Of a stretch of DNA of 64,000 nucleotides, positions 1,724 through 11,275 are shown one piece after another (positions within the stretch are counted from its first letter, which is position 1; each line of letters opens with the position of its first letter). Source of the DNA: Oscillatoriaceae cyanobacterium Prado104. Its GTDB lineage: Bacteria; Cyanobacteriota; Cyanobacteriia; Cyanobacteriales; Microcoleaceae. Made by a program: the position numbers and the translations under genes. The notes under the pieces are model-generated. The model saw only the letters and a program-made list of their open reading frames with translations. It was not told the DNA's origin and ran no database searches. The stretch lies in assembly GCA_025454405.1 (NCBI GenBank), contig JALOON010000046.1:1-64000 (forward strand), given 5' to 3'.

Positions 1724-2350
1724 TCAATTACCTGGTTCCATGAGTTCGGTGAGAGTTGCAAACATTCGATCGCACCCTACAGAAGCCTCACGAACCTTGC
1801 CAACATCCAACATTTCTAATAGCTGATAAGCATGCTGTATCTTTTGATATTCGCCTTTCGATTTTGTGTCGCGGGTAGCTGCTTTCAGACTTCGTTCTAA
1901 CAAATCCTTGTCAATCTTCTCTACATTTCTATGTTTAGGTATCGCATTTTCTTTAAATCCCTGCCCGTAAAATCTTTTTAAAGTATCAATATCCGCAATC
2001 AACAAAGCTTCCATCGCTTGAATTATTAGATAACAATGACTGTCATCAACGCCTGGGGAATCCCAATTATCCCTCGACTTCAAATGCTCCCAAGGCGACT
2101 GTTTGACAACAGGCGCTTCTGAGTCAACCAGAAGTATAATAAAGGCATTTGGGTAATCTGACAAAGCATTCTTAAAATCCCTGAAAGCATTATTCCGAGA
2201 ACCGCAAACAATTAGATTCCACTTAATTTTATTGTTGCGGGCAACCTGCACGAGTTCTTTGAAAAAACTGCTAAATCCTTGTCGGAGCAATTGCTTTGTA
2301 TTCTTGCCATCGCCGCGGCCTTCGATGTAAATGCGAACCTCTTTTACCAT
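1724..2350 (-). CDS. DUF4276 (TOPRIM-like) protein paired with an ATPase
   Basis: A 208-aa protein with the DUF4276 pattern. The N-terminal strand ends IYIEGRGDG (Glu10), and a second acidic motif LLVDSE (Asp76, Glu78) follows; this spacing is typical of TOPRIM-like metal sites. Further on are the family motifs HCYLIIQAMEALLIAD, YGQGF and ATRDTKSKGEYQKI. It overlaps the upstream ATPase gene by 7 bp, so the two are translationally coupled. In known ATPase/TOPRIM pairs (OLD family, PARIS, AbiL-like) the TOPRIM protein is the nuclease effector and the ATPase the sensor. That role here is inference; DUF4276 itself is poorly characterised. Confidence 0.72.
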   Translation of the reverse strand: MVKEVRIYIEGRGDGKNTKQLLRQGFSSFFKELVQVARNNKIKWNLIVCGSRNNAFRDFKNALSDYPNAFIILLVDSEAPVVKQSPWEHLKSRDNWDSPGVDDSHCYLIIQAMEALLIADIDTLKRFYGQGFKENAIPKHRNVEKIDKDLLERSLKAATRDTKSKGEYQKIQHAYQLLEMLDVGKVREASVGCDRMFATLTELMEPGN

Positions 2351-3561
2351 CGGTTTCCCCCGATTTCTCCCATCCGCCAGAGGTCCCCCAAACTGTAATT
2401 CTCAAGCCATTTTTTTAGTCGTTCTGGATCGAGACGGCGCAGGTGACTTCCTCGATCGTCTCGATCGCATATTAACACGGACTCAGGACTCAGCGCCGAC
2501 ACCAAAGCATCGGAATGAGTTGTCACAATTAGTTGCGTTCGCTGCGAAGCTTCGATCAACATTTCAGCAATAGCAGGCAGTATGTCGGGATGCAAGCCAA
2601 TCTCCGGTTCTTCAATACAAATAAGTGGCGGTGGAGTTGGATCTAAAAGTAAAGCTATTAAGAATAAATAGCGCAGCGTACCGTCTGATAAACGAGTTGC
2701 AGGAATTGGCTGACTCAATCCGGTTTCCCTGATGAATATCTGGACTGTACCGCCATAAATCTTGATACTCAATTCTTCGGCTGGATCGTAGAACAGTTTT
2801 AATTTTTCAATAATCTGCCTGCTTCCTAATTGATACTGTAAGTTGTTTAAAACTAATCCTAAGTTGCTACCATCTTCTAGCAGCGGATGTTCCGGCAAGT
2901 CTGTTTGCTGAGCCTTTCTCGCTCCTGAATCTTGTCCTGTCTGGCTGTTACGATACAAGCCAATTTCTGCAAATTTATTTGCCAGATATGATAGCTCTGG
3001 ATATTGTTCTGGATCTTTTCTTTGAGATAAGATAGATTGAGTTGAAATTATATCTTCTCGCCGCAGAGTCCGCAGCTTTCTTGTTTGCCGATCGCCTTCA
3101 TCTGTAACGTTGATAACTGAACGCCCCCGATCGCTGTAACGGTAGTAAAAAAATGGCTCGCTTTCCGAACTATTGCGCGGTTCCATATCTTCTATAGCTT
3201 CGTCTACTACTTCAATTCTTTGACCTACTGCGGTAAAACTAATCTGATAGCGCAGCGGTATCGTTCCTTCTGGATAATCTAAAATAGCCTCTATTTTTGC
3301 TGTGGGAATGCCTGGTTTGCCTTTCCACAAAAAATCGCTGATGCCTCCCCCTTGACGGATCGGAGCAGGTAAGTCTGTAGGTGTTGCTTTCAAAAGTGCG
3401 ATCGCTTCAATTAAGTTAGACTTGCCGGATGCGTTAGGACCGATCGACACATTTAAAGGTTGCAGTTCTATTTGTTCTCCTTCACTTCCATAGGAAAGGA
3501 AGTTTTGCAGTCGCACGGAGTGAATAAATCTTTTGCCTTTCAACTTTTCCTCCTCTGTCAA
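2344..3561 (-). CDS. AAA15/AAA21-type ATPase, RecF/OLD-like
   Basis: A 405-aa SMC-like ABC ATPase without a long coiled coil. Walker A is GPNASGKSN (41-49). The signature-like motif is RLSDGTLRYL, Walker B is LICIEEPE with following GLHPD (about 313-325), and the H-loop is TTHSD (about 345-349). This is the RecF/OLD-type head found in stand-alone defence ATPases. It is first in a two-gene unit, with the DUF4276 start inside its 3' end. An intergenic region rich in palindromic repeats separates it from the upstream kinase. It is probably a nucleotide-dependent sensor or clamp that works with the DUF4276 partner; the target is unknown. Confidence 0.78.
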   Translation of the reverse strand: MTEEEKLKGKRFIHSVRLQNFLSYGSEGEQIELQPLNVSIGPNASGKSNLIEAIALLKATPTDLPAPIRQGGGISDFLWKGKPGIPTAKIEAILDYPEGTIPLRYQISFTAVGQRIEVVDEAIEDMEPRNSSESEPFFYYRYSDRGRSVINVTDEGDRQTRKLRTLRREDIISTQSILSQRKDPEQYPELSYLANKFAEIGLYRNSQTGQDSGARKAQQTDLPEHPLLEDGSNLGLVLNNLQYQLGSRQIIEKLKLFYDPAEELSIKIYGGTVQIFIRETGLSQPIPATRLSDGTLRYLFLIALLLDPTPPPLICIEEPEIGLHPDILPAIAEMLIEASQRTQLIVTTHSDALVSALSPESVLICDRDDRGSHLRRLDPERLKKWLENYSLGDLWRMGEIGGNRW

Positions 3562-3857: not shown

Positions 3858-6800
3858 CTAAATTGGCAGCCGCACGTAGAAAGTTGAGCCGAGCCCTTCT
3901 CCCGGACTTTCAACCCAAACTGTGCCGCCGTGCAGTTCCACCAAATGCCGGACGATCGCCAGTCCCAAGCCCAAACCTCCGTGATATCGCGCGCGAGTGC
4001 TGTCTGCTTGGCGGAAGCGATCGAACGCAAACGGCAAAAACTCCTTGCTGATGCCAATTCCCGTATCGCTGACAGAAATTAAAGCAAAATCTCCCGCCAC
4101 CTCCGATAGGCGGATTTCGACGCGACCTCCCGAAGGTGTAAACTTAACAGCATTTGTCAGTAAATTCCACACTACCTGCTGCAAGCGCGCTGCATCGCCC
4201 CCGATCGGCCCGATCCCTTCGCCAACAACCACAGTCAATTCAATCTCTTTAGCTTCAGCATCGGCGCGCACCGCAGCCGCAGCCAATTCGATCGCCCTTG
4301 CCAAATCCACTCGCCGCCGGATCAAACACAGATTGCCGCTGACAATTCGCGAAATCTCCAGCAAATCGTCGATCGTCTGAGTCAGCAAGCGGGAGTTGCG
4401 CTCGATCGCCTCCAAACCCACAGCCGTTTTTTCAGGACTCAACTTGCGCTGCCGCAACATCTGCGCCCAGCCCAAAATCGCGTTCAGAGGCGTCCGCAAT
4501 TCGTGAGACAGCGTTCCCAAAAACTCATCCTTAATCCGGTTTGCCTCCTGGGCTTCCCGGTAAAGCCGCGCATTGTCGATCGCCACCGCCGCATCCCGCG
4601 CCAAATCCTCCACCACCGCCAAATCCGCAGCCCCGAAACCCCGACCGACATTCCCGCACAGCAGCGAAATCGCTCCCAACGTCCGCCCGCGAGCGATCAG
4701 CGGCACGCACATCGCCGACAGCGGACTATCCTGCTGCAGCATTTCCAGCAACTCGGCATCCGGCACGACGGTCGAGAGTACGGATTCGGGTATATTTGCA
4801 TACCGCTTCGATATTCCCGCGCGCAGGACTTTGGCGACTCCGTGGCGTCCATCGGGATCGACGGGCGCGCGCCGATCGATTTGCCACAACAGAGCAACTT
4901 TTTGGGGATCGGAATGGGCGACGGCTTGCAACACGATCGAACCGTCAGTCTGCAGCAAGTGGACGCAGCACCAGTCCGCCAGCGCCGGTACGGCTAAATC
5001 CGCCAAACCTTGCAGGGCCGCGTCCATGTCCAGGGATGCTGAAGACAGCAAAGCTAGAGCTCTAGCCCGGAAATCCGCTGTCTCGGCTTCCCGCTTGCGA
5101 TCGTCAATATCCGTACAAGTCCCGAACCATTTAATAATTTTCCCAGTCTCATCCCGCACCGGCAAAGCCCGCCCTAAATGCCAGCGGTAAGCCCCGTCAG
5201 CAGCGCGTTTAAAGCGGTATTCTACCTCGTAAGTCTCCCCCGTTTGCACTGCCCGATTCCAGCGTTCCAGGCAGTTCTGAAGGTCGTCTGGATGCAAGAC
5301 CGGCTGCCACCCCCAGCCTTGAGTTTCTTCCAACGTCATGCCGGTGTATTCAAACCAGCGCTGGTTGTAATAGTCTGTCCCCCCGTCGGGCCAAGCAGTC
5401 CAAACTATCTGGGGGATGGCTTCAGCGAGGACGCGGTAAAGCTGTTCCCCGGCTTGAGCTTCGCGGCGGGCGATTTGTTCCCGCGCTAGGGCGAGATTCC
5501 GCTGGGATTCGGCTTGCTTGCGGGCGGTGATGTCGCCGATCGCGCCGATCCACTTGCAGGGATTGCCGCGATCGTCCCGGACTGCTTTGCCCCGATCGAT
5601 CCAGTGCAGCGCGCCCCCGCGGCGGGACATCACTCGGTACTCTTGCAAAAATGGGGCATCCGAACTGTCGCTGGTTTTTAAATAGGCTGCGACTGCTGCT
5701 GCAACTCTCGCGCGGTCTTCCGGATGCAAAATATCCTCCCAAGCTTGCCTGGTTCTGGGGAATTCGCCTCTTTCGTAGCCTAAATGTTCGTCGGCGCGGC
5801 CGAACCACAACATGATGCCGCTGTTGATATCCCATTCGTAAATTAAATCGCTGGCGCTTTCTGCCGCAATCCGAAATCGCTCTTCTGATTGTCGCAAAAC
5901 TTCTAAAAAGTTAAAGCGTTCGGTAACGTCTAAAACTAGAGACAGCACCGATACCAACTCTCCCGATTCGCTGTAAAAAGCTGAGTTGTACCACTCGCAG
6001 CGCGCGCTCGTACCGCCTTTGCGATCGTTGCGGGTGCGCAGGATGTTGCACCTTTCTTTCCCGCTTTTTAAGTTAGAAATACCCGCGTTGAAAGTTGCCA
6101 AATCGCCTGGAAAAATTAAGTTACACTCGCTAAAATGCAAGTCTAAAACTTCTACTGCTTGCCACCCAAAAATTTTTTCTGCTGCGGGCGACCACCGACA
6201 GCAGCACAAATTTTCATCCCATTCGATCGTTGCTAGCGGCGAGTTCTCGAAGTGCGAATTGAGTTTTTGCAGCGCGCCGCGCAGCGATGCTTCTGTTTGC
6301 TTGCGAACGCTAATATCGCTAAAGGAAATCGCGATGCCGTCCCCCAGTTTAACAGTCATGTTCCGAAACCAACCGACTATGCCTTCGCTGTTGTAGGAAA
6401 TCTCGATGTCGTGAGGAATTCCTGTTTCTGCTACTCGCGCGTAACTGTCGAACAAATCGCTGTTTGTAAGATCTGGAAATACTTCCAGCAAGCGCTTGCC
6501 GATTAATTCTGTTGGAGTCCGACCCTGAATTTTTGCTGCTGCGGGATTGACGTATTCCCATTCAAAATCTGCAATTTTGCCGCTGCTGTCGCGGATGCTC
6601 CGCAGCACGTTAAATCCGTCTAGAGATAGCTCTTGAAAAGCTTTGAAGCGGGCTTCGCTGTCTTTGAGGGCTGTTTCGATGTTTTTTTGCTTCGTGATGT
6701 CTCGAACGAAAAATGCACCGCTGTTGGGATTGTTCCAAATTGCGGGGGCGATCGCGATCGGAATCCGGCGACCGTCTTTGCGGGTAAATTCTGTTTCTTG

Positions 6801-7670
6801 AAGGTTATTGAAGGAAGAGTTGATAGTTGGGAATTGGGCATTGGGAATTGGGAATTGGGCATTGGGCATTCTCCCACTCTCCCACTCTCCCCATCCCCCC
6901 ACTCTCCCACTCTCCCGCTCTCCCAGTGTCTCGGGATCGGGGCGAGCGTCCGTATTTATTAGTTCTGGAAGTGCGATCGCTTGCCAGTCGATTTTCCCCG
7001 ATCGCAAATCTTCTTGCGTGTATCCGACGATCTCCAGCAGAGTGTTGTTAGCTTCGGTAATTTTGCCGCTGGCATCCCAAAAAACTATGCCGATCGGGCT
7101 GGATTCTACTAATTGCTGAAATCTGGAATTTGCCTGCACCAGTTGCTCTGCTATTTGCTGTCTGCTGGCGATTTCTTGGAGCAATTGTTCTTGAATTTCC
7201 AAGAATTCTGTTTGACTGAATTTGGCGGTATTTTCCACCGAGCGATCGACTGTTTTTATCGATTCAATAGTTTTAATGTTTTTCGCAAAAACGGCATCAT
7301 TTGCACCCGCTATTTCCTCCAAGGAAAAGCGAGCTAAAATTAGGGGAATTAACGGTAAAAATTTTACAGCAGCCCACAAAGAAATTGCAGCAGTTACTGC
7401 CTCGATCGAACTCAATGGTAAATCGCTCGCAGGCGGTGTTGTCCGGACGGCTATCAGGTGAGTAGCGCCGATTCCGAAACAGCAGGCTCCCAACAGAACA
7501 AAGCTGTTGCTCGATCGCGCCTCACCCTGCTTGCGCCAGTAAATCAGGAAAGCTGGAATTGAGCAATAAGTCAAGGCAATTAACAAATTGCTGACTGCGT
7601 GCAGGGCGAGTAACTGCGATTGCCATTGGCAGCATCCACCTAAGGAAATAAAATTGTAGTTAAATGACAT
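3858..7670 (-). CDS. Ethylene-receptor-like multi-PAS/GAF sensor histidine kinase
   Basis: A 1270-aa membrane hybrid-free kinase. The first 110 residues form a three-helix membrane domain matching plant ETR1 and cyanobacterial Slr1212 (LLIALTYCSIP at 29-39, GATHL at 68-72). Then come a coiled coil, about five PAS modules (roughly 180-870), a GAF domain (about 890-1035), HisKA with LSHELRTPLN (His1056), and HATPase with NAVKF, DTGIGIS and GLGLGLAIV. Compared with ETR1, Tyr32, Ile35, Pro36 and His69 are kept, but Asp25 is Asn28 and copper-ligand Cys65 is Ile67. The first PAS region carries an in-frame insert of intergenic repeat DNA at 6811-6930. I chose ATG 7670; a TTG at 7691 would add seven residues. 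No receiver domain or response regulator is adjacent. Confidence 0.88.
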   Translation of the reverse strand: MSFNYNFISLGGCCQWQSQLLALHAVSNLLIALTYCSIPAFLIYWRKQGEARSSNSFVLLGACCFGIGATHLIAVRTTPPASDLPLSSIEAVTAAISLWAAVKFLPLIPLILARFSLEEIAGANDAVFAKNIKTIESIKTVDRSVENTAKFSQTEFLEIQEQLLQEIASRQQIAEQLVQANSRFQQLVESSPIGIVFWDASGKITEANNTLLEIVGYTQEDLRSGKIDWQAIALPELINTDARPDPETLGERESGRVGGWGEWESGRMPNAQFPIPNAQFPTINSSFNNLQETEFTRKDGRRIPIAIAPAIWNNPNSGAFFVRDITKQKNIETALKDSEARFKAFQELSLDGFNVLRSIRDSSGKIADFEWEYVNPAAAKIQGRTPTELIGKRLLEVFPDLTNSDLFDSYARVAETGIPHDIEISYNSEGIVGWFRNMTVKLGDGIAISFSDISVRKQTEASLRGALQKLNSHFENSPLATIEWDENLCCCRWSPAAEKIFGWQAVEVLDLHFSECNLIFPGDLATFNAGISNLKSGKERCNILRTRNDRKGGTSARCEWYNSAFYSESGELVSVLSLVLDVTERFNFLEVLRQSEERFRIAAESASDLIYEWDINSGIMLWFGRADEHLGYERGEFPRTRQAWEDILHPEDRARVAAAVAAYLKTSDSSDAPFLQEYRVMSRRGGALHWIDRGKAVRDDRGNPCKWIGAIGDITARKQAESQRNLALAREQIARREAQAGEQLYRVLAEAIPQIVWTAWPDGGTDYYNQRWFEYTGMTLEETQGWGWQPVLHPDDLQNCLERWNRAVQTGETYEVEYRFKRAADGAYRWHLGRALPVRDETGKIIKWFGTCTDIDDRKREAETADFRARALALLSSASLDMDAALQGLADLAVPALADWCCVHLLQTDGSIVLQAVAHSDPQKVALLWQIDRRAPVDPDGRHGVAKVLRAGISKRYANIPESVLSTVVPDAELLEMLQQDSPLSAMCVPLIARGRTLGAISLLCGNVGRGFGAADLAVVEDLARDAAVAIDNARLYREAQEANRIKDEFLGTLSHELRTPLNAILGWAQMLRQRKLSPEKTAVGLEAIERNSRLLTQTIDDLLEISRIVSGNLCLIRRRVDLARAIELAAAAVRADAEAKEIELTVVVGEGIGPIGGDAARLQQVVWNLLTNAVKFTPSGGRVEIRLSEVAGDFALISVSDTGIGISKEFLPFAFDRFRQADSTRARYHGGLGLGLAIVRHLVELHGGTVWVESPGEGLGSTFYVRLPI
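6811..6930. repeat. Intergenic-type repeat mosaic inside the kinase coding sequence
   Basis: About 120 bp (40 codons) made of the modules AAGGAAG, GTTGATAG, repeated GGGAATT/GGGCATT, and CTCCCACT. On the minus strand it is translated into a low-complexity stretch (GERESGRVGGWGEW... to PNAQFPIPNAQF...). The same modules in the same order, reverse-complemented, form the intergenic tract at about 23936-24073. The frame is kept, so the kinase remains intact. PAS sequence resumes with EFTRKDGRRIPI. Confidence 0.85.
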
Positions 7671-8211
7671 AAAATTGAAAAATTCTAGCAATTCGCTGTG
7701 GACTGCGCGATCGCCCCGATCGAAAAACCCCCGGCTGGCAACAACTCTGACGAAAGTAAAAGGTACAAATTAGAAAGTAAAATCAAAAATTTATCCTTCA
7801 GCCTCCAAATGACTTGCTCCCCTGTTGTCGATCTGCTAATTTCTAGTGTATTTGCTAATTCCCTGGATGCGATGGCGTCGAATTAGAAACTAATGCCTGC
7901 CTGTATCAAAGTCTACTAAATTCCGCTGGCAAATCGGTTAATGTCACTTAATTACCAAAAAATAGGCTCTCGCATTCGGGCCTCAACCAGTCAAAAGTTT
8001 TGAGAAACGGGTACAGCGTAGCGGAAGGTTAAATCGGGAACCCGCAAACACCGCCCTCCACTGTCCCAGGTAAGGTGCGTCGCTATTAAATTGTCGATTT
8101 TTTTAGGGATTGTTGGTAGCGGTGCACCCTACGACTGTCTTTAACTCAAAACTCAAAATTCAAAACTCAAAACTCCTTACCAACTGTCAACTGTCAACTG
8201 TTTAAACCTCC
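7671..8211. other. Divergent promoter region between the kinase and ntcB
   Basis: A 541-bp gap between the kinase start and ntcB. It holds the NtcA box and -10 element (listed separately), then a leader of about 260 nt that ends in heptamer repeats (CAAAACT and CAACTGT families, about 8144-8202). A short open frame at 7698-7886 has no recognisable product and is not called. Confidence 0.6.
7903..7944 (+). promoter_or_regulatory. NtcA-activated (class II) promoter of ntcB
   Basis: GTA at 7903-7905, eight bases, then TAC at 7914-7916 form the exact NtcA consensus GTA-N8-TAC. Twenty-two bases further on, TAATGT (7939-7944) fits the TAN3T -10 box used in NtcA-activated promoters. Transcription would start near 7950 and run into ntcB. 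NtcA is the CRP-family nitrogen regulator that senses 2-oxoglutarate, and ntcB is a known NtcA target. The match is by sequence only. Confidence 0.75.
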
Positions 8212-9198
8212 ATGCGCCTAGAGCAGCTTCAAGCATTTCTTTCTGTTGCTGAAACCGGCAGCTTTCAGCAAGCTGCGGGGAAATGCGGCGTTACTCAATC
8301 AACGATCAGCCGCCAAGTGCAGGGACTGGAAGCTGAACTGGGCCTGTCGCTGTTTCACCGCACGGCTCAAGCTAAGCTGACTTTGGGAGGCGAGCGCCTG
8401 CTGCCCCACGCCCGCAAAATCTGTCAGACTTGGCACAATGCAACGCAGGAATTGGCGGATTTGTTGGCGGGGAAGCAGCCGGAACTTTGCGTGGCAGCCA
8501 TTCACTCGGTGTGCGCTGCTTATTTGCCTCCGGTACTGCAAAAATTTTGCCGGGACTACCCGGAAGTGCAGTTGCGCGTCACTGCTTTAGGAAGCGATCG
8601 CGCTTTGAAGGTACTCAAAGATGGTTTGGTAGATGTGGCAGTGGTGATGAACAACCGCTATTTTACTCAAGCGCCGGAAATGTTGGTTGAGGTACTATAC
8701 AGCGAACCGATCGAGGTGTTGATGGCGGCAGGCCACCCGCTGACAAAGTACGATCGAGTCCCTTGGGAAGAATTGATTGCTTTCCCGCAAGTGGTGTTTA
8801 AAGATGGGTACGGAATGCAGCGGATGGTACAAGAGCAATTCGGACGCATGGGTGCTAAACTGCAAGCTGTTTTGGAGTTGAACACTCTCGATGCTTTCCG
8901 GGGAGTGGTGCGACAGGGAGAATTGATCGCCCTGCTGCCGCATTCTGCTTTGTCGGATGCCCGCGGCGATCGCACTTTAGCAATCCGCCCGATCGAAAGC
9001 AACAGCCCGAATTCTAAGGTTTCCGAACTCAGCAGCAGAGCAAACTCTGGGATTTGGAATCGCGAAGTCGTGTTGGTGACAACAGTCGATCGGATGCAAA
9101 TTCCCCCGATCGCTCATTTCTGGAAGCTAGTCCGCGAATTAGTCCGCCCGCCATTAGATTTAGTTAAAGTCGAAAAAACCAAAGAGTTAATTTTGTAG
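8212..9198 (+). CDS. ntcB: LysR-type nitrate assimilation activator NtcB
   Basis: A 328-aa LysR regulator. The N-terminal winged helix runs from MRLEQLQAFLSVAETGSF through TQSTISRQVQ to the dimerisation helix; the effector-binding domain follows from about residue 90 (ELCVAAIHSV, NTLDAFRGVVRQGELIALLP). It resembles cyanobacterial NtcB, which increases transcription of the nitrate/nitrite genes when nitrite is present. The next gene is a cnaT homologue and mobA follows, the arrangement expected of a nitrate-assimilation control block. Nitrate transport and reductase genes are not in the window. The upstream NtcA promoter indicates induction under nitrogen limitation. The residues after about 265 (SNSPNSKVSELSSRANSG) look like a variable loop. 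Confidence 0.85.
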   Translation: MRLEQLQAFLSVAETGSFQQAAGKCGVTQSTISRQVQGLEAELGLSLFHRTAQAKLTLGGERLLPHARKICQTWHNATQELADLLAGKQPELCVAAIHSVCAAYLPPVLQKFCRDYPEVQLRVTALGSDRALKVLKDGLVDVAVVMNNRYFTQAPEMLVEVLYSEPIEVLMAAGHPLTKYDRVPWEELIAFPQVVFKDGYGMQRMVQEQFGRMGAKLQAVLELNTLDAFRGVVRQGELIALLPHSALSDARGDRTLAIRPIESNSPNSKVSELSSRANSGIWNREVVLVTTVDRMQIPPIAHFWKLVRELVRPPLDLVKVEKTKELIL

Positions 9199-10666: not shown

Positions 10667-11275
10667 ATGATTGACAACCAAATAGTAGCTATAATTCTTG
10701 CTGGCGGTCAAAGTTCGCGGATGGGAACGGATAAGGCTTTGTTAGAAATTGCGGGCAAATATTTATTGCTGCGATCGTGCAAAATTGCCTCTCAATTAAC
10801 CTCGGAAGTTTATGTTTTGACGGCTTGGCCCGATCGCTACCGATCGGCTTTAACCGCAGAATATAAATTTATGTTAGAACACAATCCGGGTGCTGGACCT
10901 TTAGTTGCTTTATCTCAGGGATTGAGCGAAGTTAAGGCTGAGTGGATACTACTTTTAGGTTGCGATTTGCCTTTGCTGGATTCGGATATTATCCAAGATT
11001 GGGCCAGTCAGTTGCCAGAATTACCAACATCTACTTTAGCAGTTGTTCCCTATCAAAACAGTCGGTGGGAACCTTTGTGCGGCTTCTACCGCAATCAATC
11101 CCTGTCGAGTTTGCAAAAGTTTATTGAGGAAGGCGGGCGCTCTTTTCAAGTTTGGTTGAGCAAAATTCCCGCAGTACCTTTACCAGTGGGCGATCGAGCA
11201 TCATTGATGCTGTCGAATTGCAATACACCTGAAGAATTCGATCGATTAAAAGATAAAATAAGTAATAGGGCATAG
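10667..11275 (+). CDS. mobA: Molybdenum cofactor guanylyltransferase MobA
   Basis: A 202-aa cytoplasmic nucleotidyltransferase. It begins with the family P-loop-like motif ILAGGQSSRMGTDKALL (about 10-26). LLGCDLPLL carries the metal-binding aspartate (about 103-104), and RWEPLCGFY is the later conserved segment. It transfers GMP from GTP to molybdopterin to give Mo-MGD, the cofactor of bacterial-type nitrate reductase (NarB), which fits its place after ntcB and cnaT. A Shine-Dalgarno AGGAG sits about 10 bp upstream of the ATG, and the gene is separated from cnaT by a palindromic repeat. Confidence 0.9.
   Translation: MIDNQIVAIILAGGQSSRMGTDKALLEIAGKYLLLRSCKIASQLTSEVYVLTAWPDRYRSALTAEYKFMLEHNPGAGPLVALSQGLSEVKAEWILLLGCDLPLLDSDIIQDWASQLPELPTSTLAVVPYQNSRWEPLCGFYRNQSLSSLQKFIEEGGRSFQVWLSKIPAVPLPVGDRASLMLSNCNTPEEFDRLKDKISNRA

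Follow-up and report, generated by a model that had tools for sequence, protein, structure and literature searches.

Copper-site loss in an ethylene-receptor-like histidine kinase of a cyanobacterial genus and the probable retention of its membrane domain as a relic anchor

Introduction

A sensor histidine kinase encoded near the start of a 64,000-nucleotide stretch of DNA from Oscillatoriaceae cyanobacterium Prado104 (contig JALOON010000046.1, positions 1 to 64,000; hereafter the window) is the subject of this analysis. Its N-terminal membrane domain is of the ethylene-receptor type, and isoleucine (Ile67) occupies the place of the copper-ligand cysteine, Cys65 of ETR1, as had been read from the sequence in the original prediction. 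The copper-ligand pair is missing throughout the orthologous group, it is intact in orthologues in the same chromosomal slot of a sister genus, the domain that once held it is under relaxed constraint, and the catalytic motifs of the kinase are intact. Loss of the copper site has very probably left an ethylene-blind relic domain that anchors an otherwise working sensor kinase.

ETR1 loses ethylene binding when either C65 or D25 is changed, and SynEtr1 likewise depends on its equivalent cysteine (PMC11819568). Modelling has D25 positioning H69 and bonding K91, a residue involved in output (PMC11819568). Asp25, Cys65, and His69 have been named the essential copper site (PMC12643061), and C65 and H69 are taken as the proposed ligands, with one copper per monomer (PMC6586836). 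All seven ethylene-binding residues are conserved in two receptors of Geitlerinema, and SynEtr1 is a receptor for both ethylene and light (PMC6682694).

The copper site of the window protein

The membrane domain matches ETR1_N (PF25487) over residues 20-113 with an E-value of 5.7e-15 and 55.8 bits against a Pfam cut-off of 27, which is far above chance and bears out the predicted ethylene-receptor-type domain. Positions are numbered here by an ETR1 reference sequence. The residues named in the original prediction (C63, C64, I67, H71, and N28) are all as claimed, and Y32, I35, P36, and H69 of ETR1 are all retained; two further changes, Cys64 for Ile62 and Glu90 for Lys91, were absent from it. 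Four of the seven residues that we take to be the ethylene-binding set (D25, Y32, I35, P36, I62, C65, and H69) are kept in the window protein, in which the Cu(I) ligand pair Cys65 and His69 is incomplete, being represented by Ile67 and His71. Since the copper-ligand cysteine is missing, ordinary ethylene sensing is not expected of this kinase. Sequencing error is an unlikely cause, because loss of Cys65 is common to the orthologues, though the exact residues differ.

Like SynEtr1/Slr1212 (UirS, PixA) of Synechocystis, the protein is a cyanobacterial histidine kinase with an N-terminal ethylene-binding-type membrane domain. Unlike SynEtr1, it lacks Cys65, Asp25, Ile62, and Lys91, and it has five PAS modules and a GAF domain; as regards the bilin-binding GAF of UirS/cyanobacteriochrome-type dual receptors, the Pfam matches were to generic GAF models only. 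With plant ETR1 it shares the three-helix domain, the GAF, HisKA, and HATPase domains, and Tyr32, Ile35, Pro36, and His69, but it lacks Cys65, carries the five PAS modules, and gives no receiver-domain match in Pfam. GeiEtr2 of Geitlerinema PCC 7105 likewise has a membrane domain followed by PAS, GAF, and kinase domains; in contrast to the window kinase it conserves all seven residues and ends in a receiver (PMC6682694).

The orthologous group and its sister-genus counterparts

Residues 1-125, used as a protein query, gave 11 proteins, one of them the query itself, and the five that carry organism names are all from Microcoleus. A group profile built from eight of these domains scored 161-239 bits in 18 of the genus's 29 genomes. 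After these came two sister-genus genomes at 156 bits, the rest of those listed for the family's 61 genomes scoring at most 129. In the order, 291 genomes were scanned with no more than 15 candidates scored in each, and none outside the genus exceeded 156 bits. Because nothing outside the genus passes 156 bits in these scans, the copper-less group appears, within this sampling, to be limited to the genus.

Residues were counted in 28 orthologous domains (18 genomic, including that of the window, and 10 from database proteins), which form 27 distinct rows. Cys65 and His69 occur together in none of the 27. Position 65 is occupied by seven different residues, glycine in 21 rows and isoleucine, threonine, arginine, cysteine, aspartate, and alanine in one each; the sole Cys65 carrier, L085, has tyrosine at position 69 and lies nested deep inside the tree, where it is L114. 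Lys91 is kept in 0 of 26 rows, Ile62 in 0 of 27, and H69 in 22 of 27. The comparison set comprised 133 distinct intact rows selected for having both ligands, in which Y32 and F61 are universal (133/133), D25 is present in 131, and K91 in 130. Relative to these, the most variability has been gained at eight positions (32, 48, 61, 65, 69, 77, 82, and 108), with 82 and 48 gaining more than 65, and P36, G66, T94, and A95 are fixed across the 27 rows of the group. The helix stretches of the window protein are hydrophobic, with mean hydropathies of 1.68, 1.94, and 1.74.

The chromosomal setting was compared in the flanking sequence of the two sister-genus genes and of 16 genomic orthologues besides the window's own (of 17; a fragment in G412 was omitted). 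A LysR gene adjoins the kinase in both sister-genus stretches and in 15 of the 16 orthologue stretches, the exception, L111, being a contig of 5.5 kb; phosphoribosyltransferase-like (PRT-like), mobA, and aminotransferase genes then follow in stretches long enough. The orthologues in this same slot in both sister-genus genomes examined, P0015 and P0016, have D25, C65, H69, and K91 intact. They share PAS3, PAS4, GAF, HisKA, and HATPase with the window kinase at 54-72% identity by domain; PAS1 has a match in P0016 only, PAS2 in neither, and PAS5 only in part. In a tree of 22 proteins, midpoint-rooted for drawing, a fully supported split sets the two intact proteins apart from the 20 that lack the copper site. 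The window protein clusters with L107, P0002, and P0003, a four-member clade with isoleucine, glycine, glycine, and aspartate at position 65 and, in P0003, arginine at 69. A single loss of the copper site in the stem of the genus lineage, followed by drift, would be the simplest account.

Eleven of the 29 genus genomes have no group-level match, several assemblies being incomplete (74-99%). The LysR gene is present in all 11, and beside it two of them hold kinase remnants (L296:1197-1402 and L306:95-332); no kinase pieces were found in eight other LysR stretches within the available flank of up to 1.5 kb. A weak 17-residue match in L308 fell in the repeat-like insert of PAS1 and was not counted as a remnant. 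Because of the genomes without a member and the two with remnants, the kinase seems dispensable in some strains.

Selective constraint on the membrane domain

Constraint was measured as the ratio of the proportions of non-synonymous and synonymous differences (pN/pS), of the Nei-Gojobori type, by simple counting without a likelihood test. Domains were compared across 16 full-length orthologues, with the cut-off sequence L100 omitted and PAS1 not measured. The ethylene domain gave 0.547 vs 0.316 for the kinase, with 0.315-0.395 for PAS2-5, 0.378 for GAF, and 0.782 for the linker after the ethylene domain; after the loss, the ethylene domain is thus the least constrained folded part measured (PAS1 excepted). 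Its ratio is above that of the kinase in 120 of 120 pairs, a count that describes rather than tests because pairs are not independent, and leaving out one genome at a time gave 0.531-0.561 for the domain vs 0.303-0.321 for the kinase. The order is reversed in the intact pair P0015/P0016, where the ethylene domain, with 7 non-synonymous changes and a ratio of 0.123 vs 0.229 for the kinase, 0.219 for PAS3, 0.233 for PAS4, and 0.215 for GAF, is the most constrained domain measured, in this one pair.

Paralogous ethylene domains of the genus were split into groups partly by sequence motifs of our choosing; a first clustering at 70% identity had merged three paralogous groups and was replaced by this split. 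Three wholly intact groups gave domain pN/pS values of 0.178 (18 rows), 0.165 (10 rows), and 0.164 (22 rows), and a mostly intact group gave 0.300 (27 rows), or 0.286 for its 23 intact rows. The values for a second broken group and for the window's group in the same comparison were 0.465 and 0.556 (17 rows each). When paired by genome, the window's group had the higher pN in 76/78, 36/36, and 90/91 pairs against the three intact groups, in 117/120 against the mostly intact group (64/66 against its intact rows), and in 75/91 against the other broken group; these pairs too are not independent, and the counts are descriptive. By this counting, the ethylene domain is under relaxed constraint after loss of the copper site.

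Structure of the domain and the question of a shifted metal site

The original prediction had raised the possibility that Cys63 and Cys64 coordinate metal in a shifted geometry and had asked whether they covary with loss of Cys65. An AlphaFold model of the domain, built from a 36-row alignment, has helices at 10-47, 55-76, 85-104, and 107-123, with a mean predicted local distance difference test score (pLDDT) of 69 and a predicted template modelling score (pTM) of 0.44. In this moderate model C63, C64, I67, and H71 all lie on the second helix. A helix rises by 1.5 Å per residue, and Cys63 and Cys64, 7-8 residues before His71, would on this textbook geometry and the moderate model lie ~10-12 Å from it along the helix. 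At a predicted separation of ~10 Å, C64 and H71 would be too far apart to share one Cu(I). A search of solved structures with the domain returned two matches with E-values of 0.61 and 0.84, which were taken as chance.

The adjacent cysteine pair is private to the window protein: Cys61 occurs in 3 of the 27 orthologous rows and Cys62 in the window protein alone. Tryptophan occupies position 61 in 21 of the 27 and phenylalanine position 62 in 26, so that covariation with the loss of Cys65 is absent, and a shifted geometry is unsupported, given the privacy of the pair and its distance of seven residues from the histidine. A cysteine at position 64 in other orthologues was also considered as a compensating ligand and set aside as the main reading: the window's clade lacks it, another group has it next to an intact Cys65, and H69 has been lost in some of the proteins that carry it (P0004, P0009, L084, and L085). 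In the window's own genome, a paralogue at L068:364-3159 carries Cys64-Ser65, as though the Ser64-Cys65 of most relatives had been swapped.

Domain architecture and genomic neighbourhood

The open frame runs for 1270 codons from an ATG at 7670 to a stop ending at 3858. A seven-residue N-terminal extension reaches an in-frame TTG at 7691, which is the likelier start because the orthologues have a similar extension. The PAS, GAF, HisKA, and HATPase_c families of Pfam all pass their cut-offs, and the TIGR00229 "sensory box" model matches five stretches, so the predicted count of five PAS modules beside a GAF domain was correct. The H, N, and G catalytic boxes are invariant in 11 of 11 orthologous proteins. 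Coordinates are given in Table 1. PAS1 contains repeat-like in-frame DNA (gagagtgggagagtggg..., cccaatgcccaattccc...) at ~6826-6932 on the minus strand, amounting to ~35 extra residues relative to P0003.

Table 1. Features of the kinase and its neighbours in the window
Feature	Coordinates	Strand	Remarks
Ethylene-receptor-like sensor histidine kinase	3858..7691	minus	1277 aa from TTG 7691; 1270 aa from ATG 7670
ETR1_N (ethylene-binding-like) membrane domain, residues 1-113	7332..7670	minus	Predicted membrane helices; copper site lost
Asn28	7587..7589	minus	Replaces ETR1 Asp25
Cys63-Cys64 pair	7479..7484	minus	Phe and Ile are usual at these sites (ETR1 positions 61 and 62)
Ile67	7470..7472	minus	Replaces copper ligand Cys65
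His71	7458..7460	minus	ETR1 His69, kept
Glu90	7401..7403	minus	Replaces ETR1 Lys91
PAS1	6681..7124	minus	Repeat-like insert inside; 33% identity with part of P0016
PAS2	6297..6659	minus	No match in sister-genus orthologues
PAS3	5907..6269	minus	Common to sister-genus orthologues
PAS4	5496..5903	minus	Common to sister-genus orthologues
PAS5	5073..5459	minus	Partial match only, to PAS4-equivalent stretch of sister-genus orthologues
GAF domain	4572..5033	minus	Pfam
HisKA	4338..4532	minus	Intact H box (LSHELRTPLN); Pfam 58.0 bits
HATPase_c	3864..4199	minus	Intact N and G boxes; Pfam 106.1 bits
LysR-type regulator	8212..9198	plus	Divergent from kinase; each of the 39 relatives examined has a single match at E <= 1e-60
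Anthranilate phosphoribosyltransferase-like protein PRK07394	9304..10482	plus	
Molybdenum cofactor guanylyltransferase (mobA)	10667..11275	plus	

The LysR-type regulator, for which no NCBIfam model scored above cut-off, is presumably NtcB, and the PRK07394 protein is presumably CnaT. The neighbour cluster suggests, and no more, a link to nitrate assimilation. The cnaT gene is described as a positive element in expression of the nirA operon (PMC9430850). No response regulator was noticed among the open reading frames (ORFs) of the first 14 kb, read by eye. A HEAT-repeat gene lies on the kinase contig in 12 of the 16 orthologue stretches, and none was found in the window. Elsewhere on the minus strand of the window, an AAA ATPase and its partner at 1724-3561 match the candidate anti-phage system HEC-01 (PADLOC; A 597 bits, B 270 bits), and an ORF at 228-1004 resembles a voltage-gated potassium channel by its TTVGFGD filter motif, read by eye.

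Weighing the explanations

By the most probable account, the kinase descends from a copper-binding ethylene receptor whose copper and ethylene site was, most simply, lost once in the stem of the genus lineage; the sister-genus orthologues in the same chromosomal slot still have that site. The three-helix domain probably persists as a hydrophobic anchor in the membrane and an arm for dimerization, and by the counting above it is no longer under the constraint of a gas sensor. With the site lost and the domain no longer constrained in that capacity, the kinase would be expected to bind neither Cu(I) nor ethylene, and its cytosolic PAS and GAF modules would drive it, two of which, PAS2 and PAS5, seem to have no proper counterpart in the intact orthologues. 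Its function could be akin to a natural allele of the etr1-1 type, locked in the ethylene-free state; etr1-1 of Arabidopsis is reportedly Cys65Tyr. Both are receptors without a copper ligand, but etr1-1 is a laboratory mutant and not a natural lineage.

Several observations weigh against such a relic. The domain's pN/pS is below 1, which implies that something is still selected and leaves room for a contribution from an unnamed ligand, and under a coarse grouping with three groups pooled the excess of pN disappears (62/120 pairs), although the contrast in pN/pS persists (0.564 vs 0.321). The measurements come from counting only, their pairs share ancestry, the intact comparison is a single pair, and PAS1 is omitted. 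Mean hydropathy of helix 2 is 1.23 in the group vs 1.84 in intact domains. Of the 27 rows, 22 keep His69, 22 keep Asp25, and 22 carry a cysteine one residue early (Cys64; the window protein lacks it), so that some metal binding is possible in relatives.

That Cys63/Cys64, or Cys64 in other orthologues, binds Cu(I) or another metal together with the remaining histidine, so that gas or metal is still sensed, is highly improbable. Most orthologues do have a cysteine shortly ahead of position 65 (C64 in 22, C61 in 3, and C62 in 1 of the 27), and L010, a separate paralogue in the window genome, combines Cys64 and Ser65 with His69. Against this, the cysteine positions differ within the group, Cys64 accompanies an intact Cys65 in another group (the CCG type), the window's cysteines are set well apart from the histidine in the moderate model, 5 of 27 rows have lost His69, and the domain is under relaxed constraint. 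We also strongly doubt that the membrane domain now serves a different ligand that is not a metal (a lipid, a quinone, or another gas, for example), although its pN/pS of 0.55 is below 1 and positions 59 and 70 are fixed in the group and variable among intact domains. The former-site positions 32, 61, 65, and 69 are among the eight gaining most variability, no new conserved polar pocket was noticed, without a dedicated search, and the group is unmatched in 11 of 29 genus genomes with decayed pieces in two of the 11. The suggestion in the original prediction that the protein senses something else is improbable for the membrane domain, which is the least constrained folded part measured (PAS1 excepted).

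Those missing members, some in incomplete assemblies, and the remnants beside LysR in L296 and L306 could instead mean that the whole gene is decaying and the kinase has no remaining function. This is very unlikely, given an open frame of 1270 aa, a pN/pS of 0.32 for the kinase and 0.32-0.40 for PAS2-5, and catalytic boxes that are invariant in all 11 proteins. A distinctly unlikely further role, compatible with a relic anchor, is that the kinase forms mixed clusters with the cell's intact receptors and sets ethylene sensitivity in a dominant, etr1-1-like manner; every one of the 29 genus genomes has an intact domain and 20 carry intact and broken ones together, but the kinases differ in architecture.

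Copper-less domains in the genus and beyond

A census of the genus found 141 domain matches in the 29 genomes, of which 5 were fragments without the needed columns and 136 could be scored. The pair Cys65 and His69 is present in 94 of the 136 and missing from 42. The latter include all 18 genomic domains of the window's group and 19 of a second broken group, to which a paralogue on G000:C30 belongs; clustering had separated 2 of these from the other 17, and they were merged by us. There His69 is replaced by Gln, Lys, or Glu, and in some Cys65 by Trp or Asp. This second group, found in 19 genus genomes (e.g., L069:4621-6849), consists of kinases of ~740-810 aa in which Pro36 has become Ala. The group of the G000:C28 paralogue lacks the pair in 4 of 27 (Ser or Asn at 65), and one further group in 1 of 9. 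At least one intact domain occurs in every genus genome.

Outside the genus, 50 of 50 domains were intact, a figure biased upward since these were mainly best-scoring ones; among family extras that enter neither count (L229-L233), four were scorable and L232 has Phe at position 65. Outside the family, 116 matches were obtained in 54 genomes (54 of the 79 with a match, taken in handle order). The pair was missing from 13 of 60 rows fetched from the 62 lower-scoring ones, several of the 13 scoring near the family cut-off and possibly not true members, and the 54 higher-scoring rows were not all read. A broad protein search gave 2437 matches, of which the best 120 were close relatives of the query, and genome stretches were used instead. 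The unusual sensor of the original prediction is thus unusual in part only, since the copper pair is lost in other cyanobacterial ethylene domains as well. The titles and opening lines of abstracts listed by searches on ethylene receptors and the copper site mention no cyanobacterial ethylene domains without a copper ligand, which does not establish their absence from print.

It is conceivable, though unlikely, that blind receptors of the etr1-1 kind recur as functional proteins in several cyanobacterial lineages beside intact ones, tuning the ethylene response or passing the kinase to PAS inputs, and that the Cys64 clade may have a register-shifted metal site. Matches to PF25487 are easily taken to mean "ethylene receptor", and with 42 of 136 genus domains lacking the ligand pair this label misleads in about a third of cases. 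With an intact orthologue in the sister genus and a blind one here, the slot would be a natural experiment on how a receptor kinase behaves once its gas sensor is lost.

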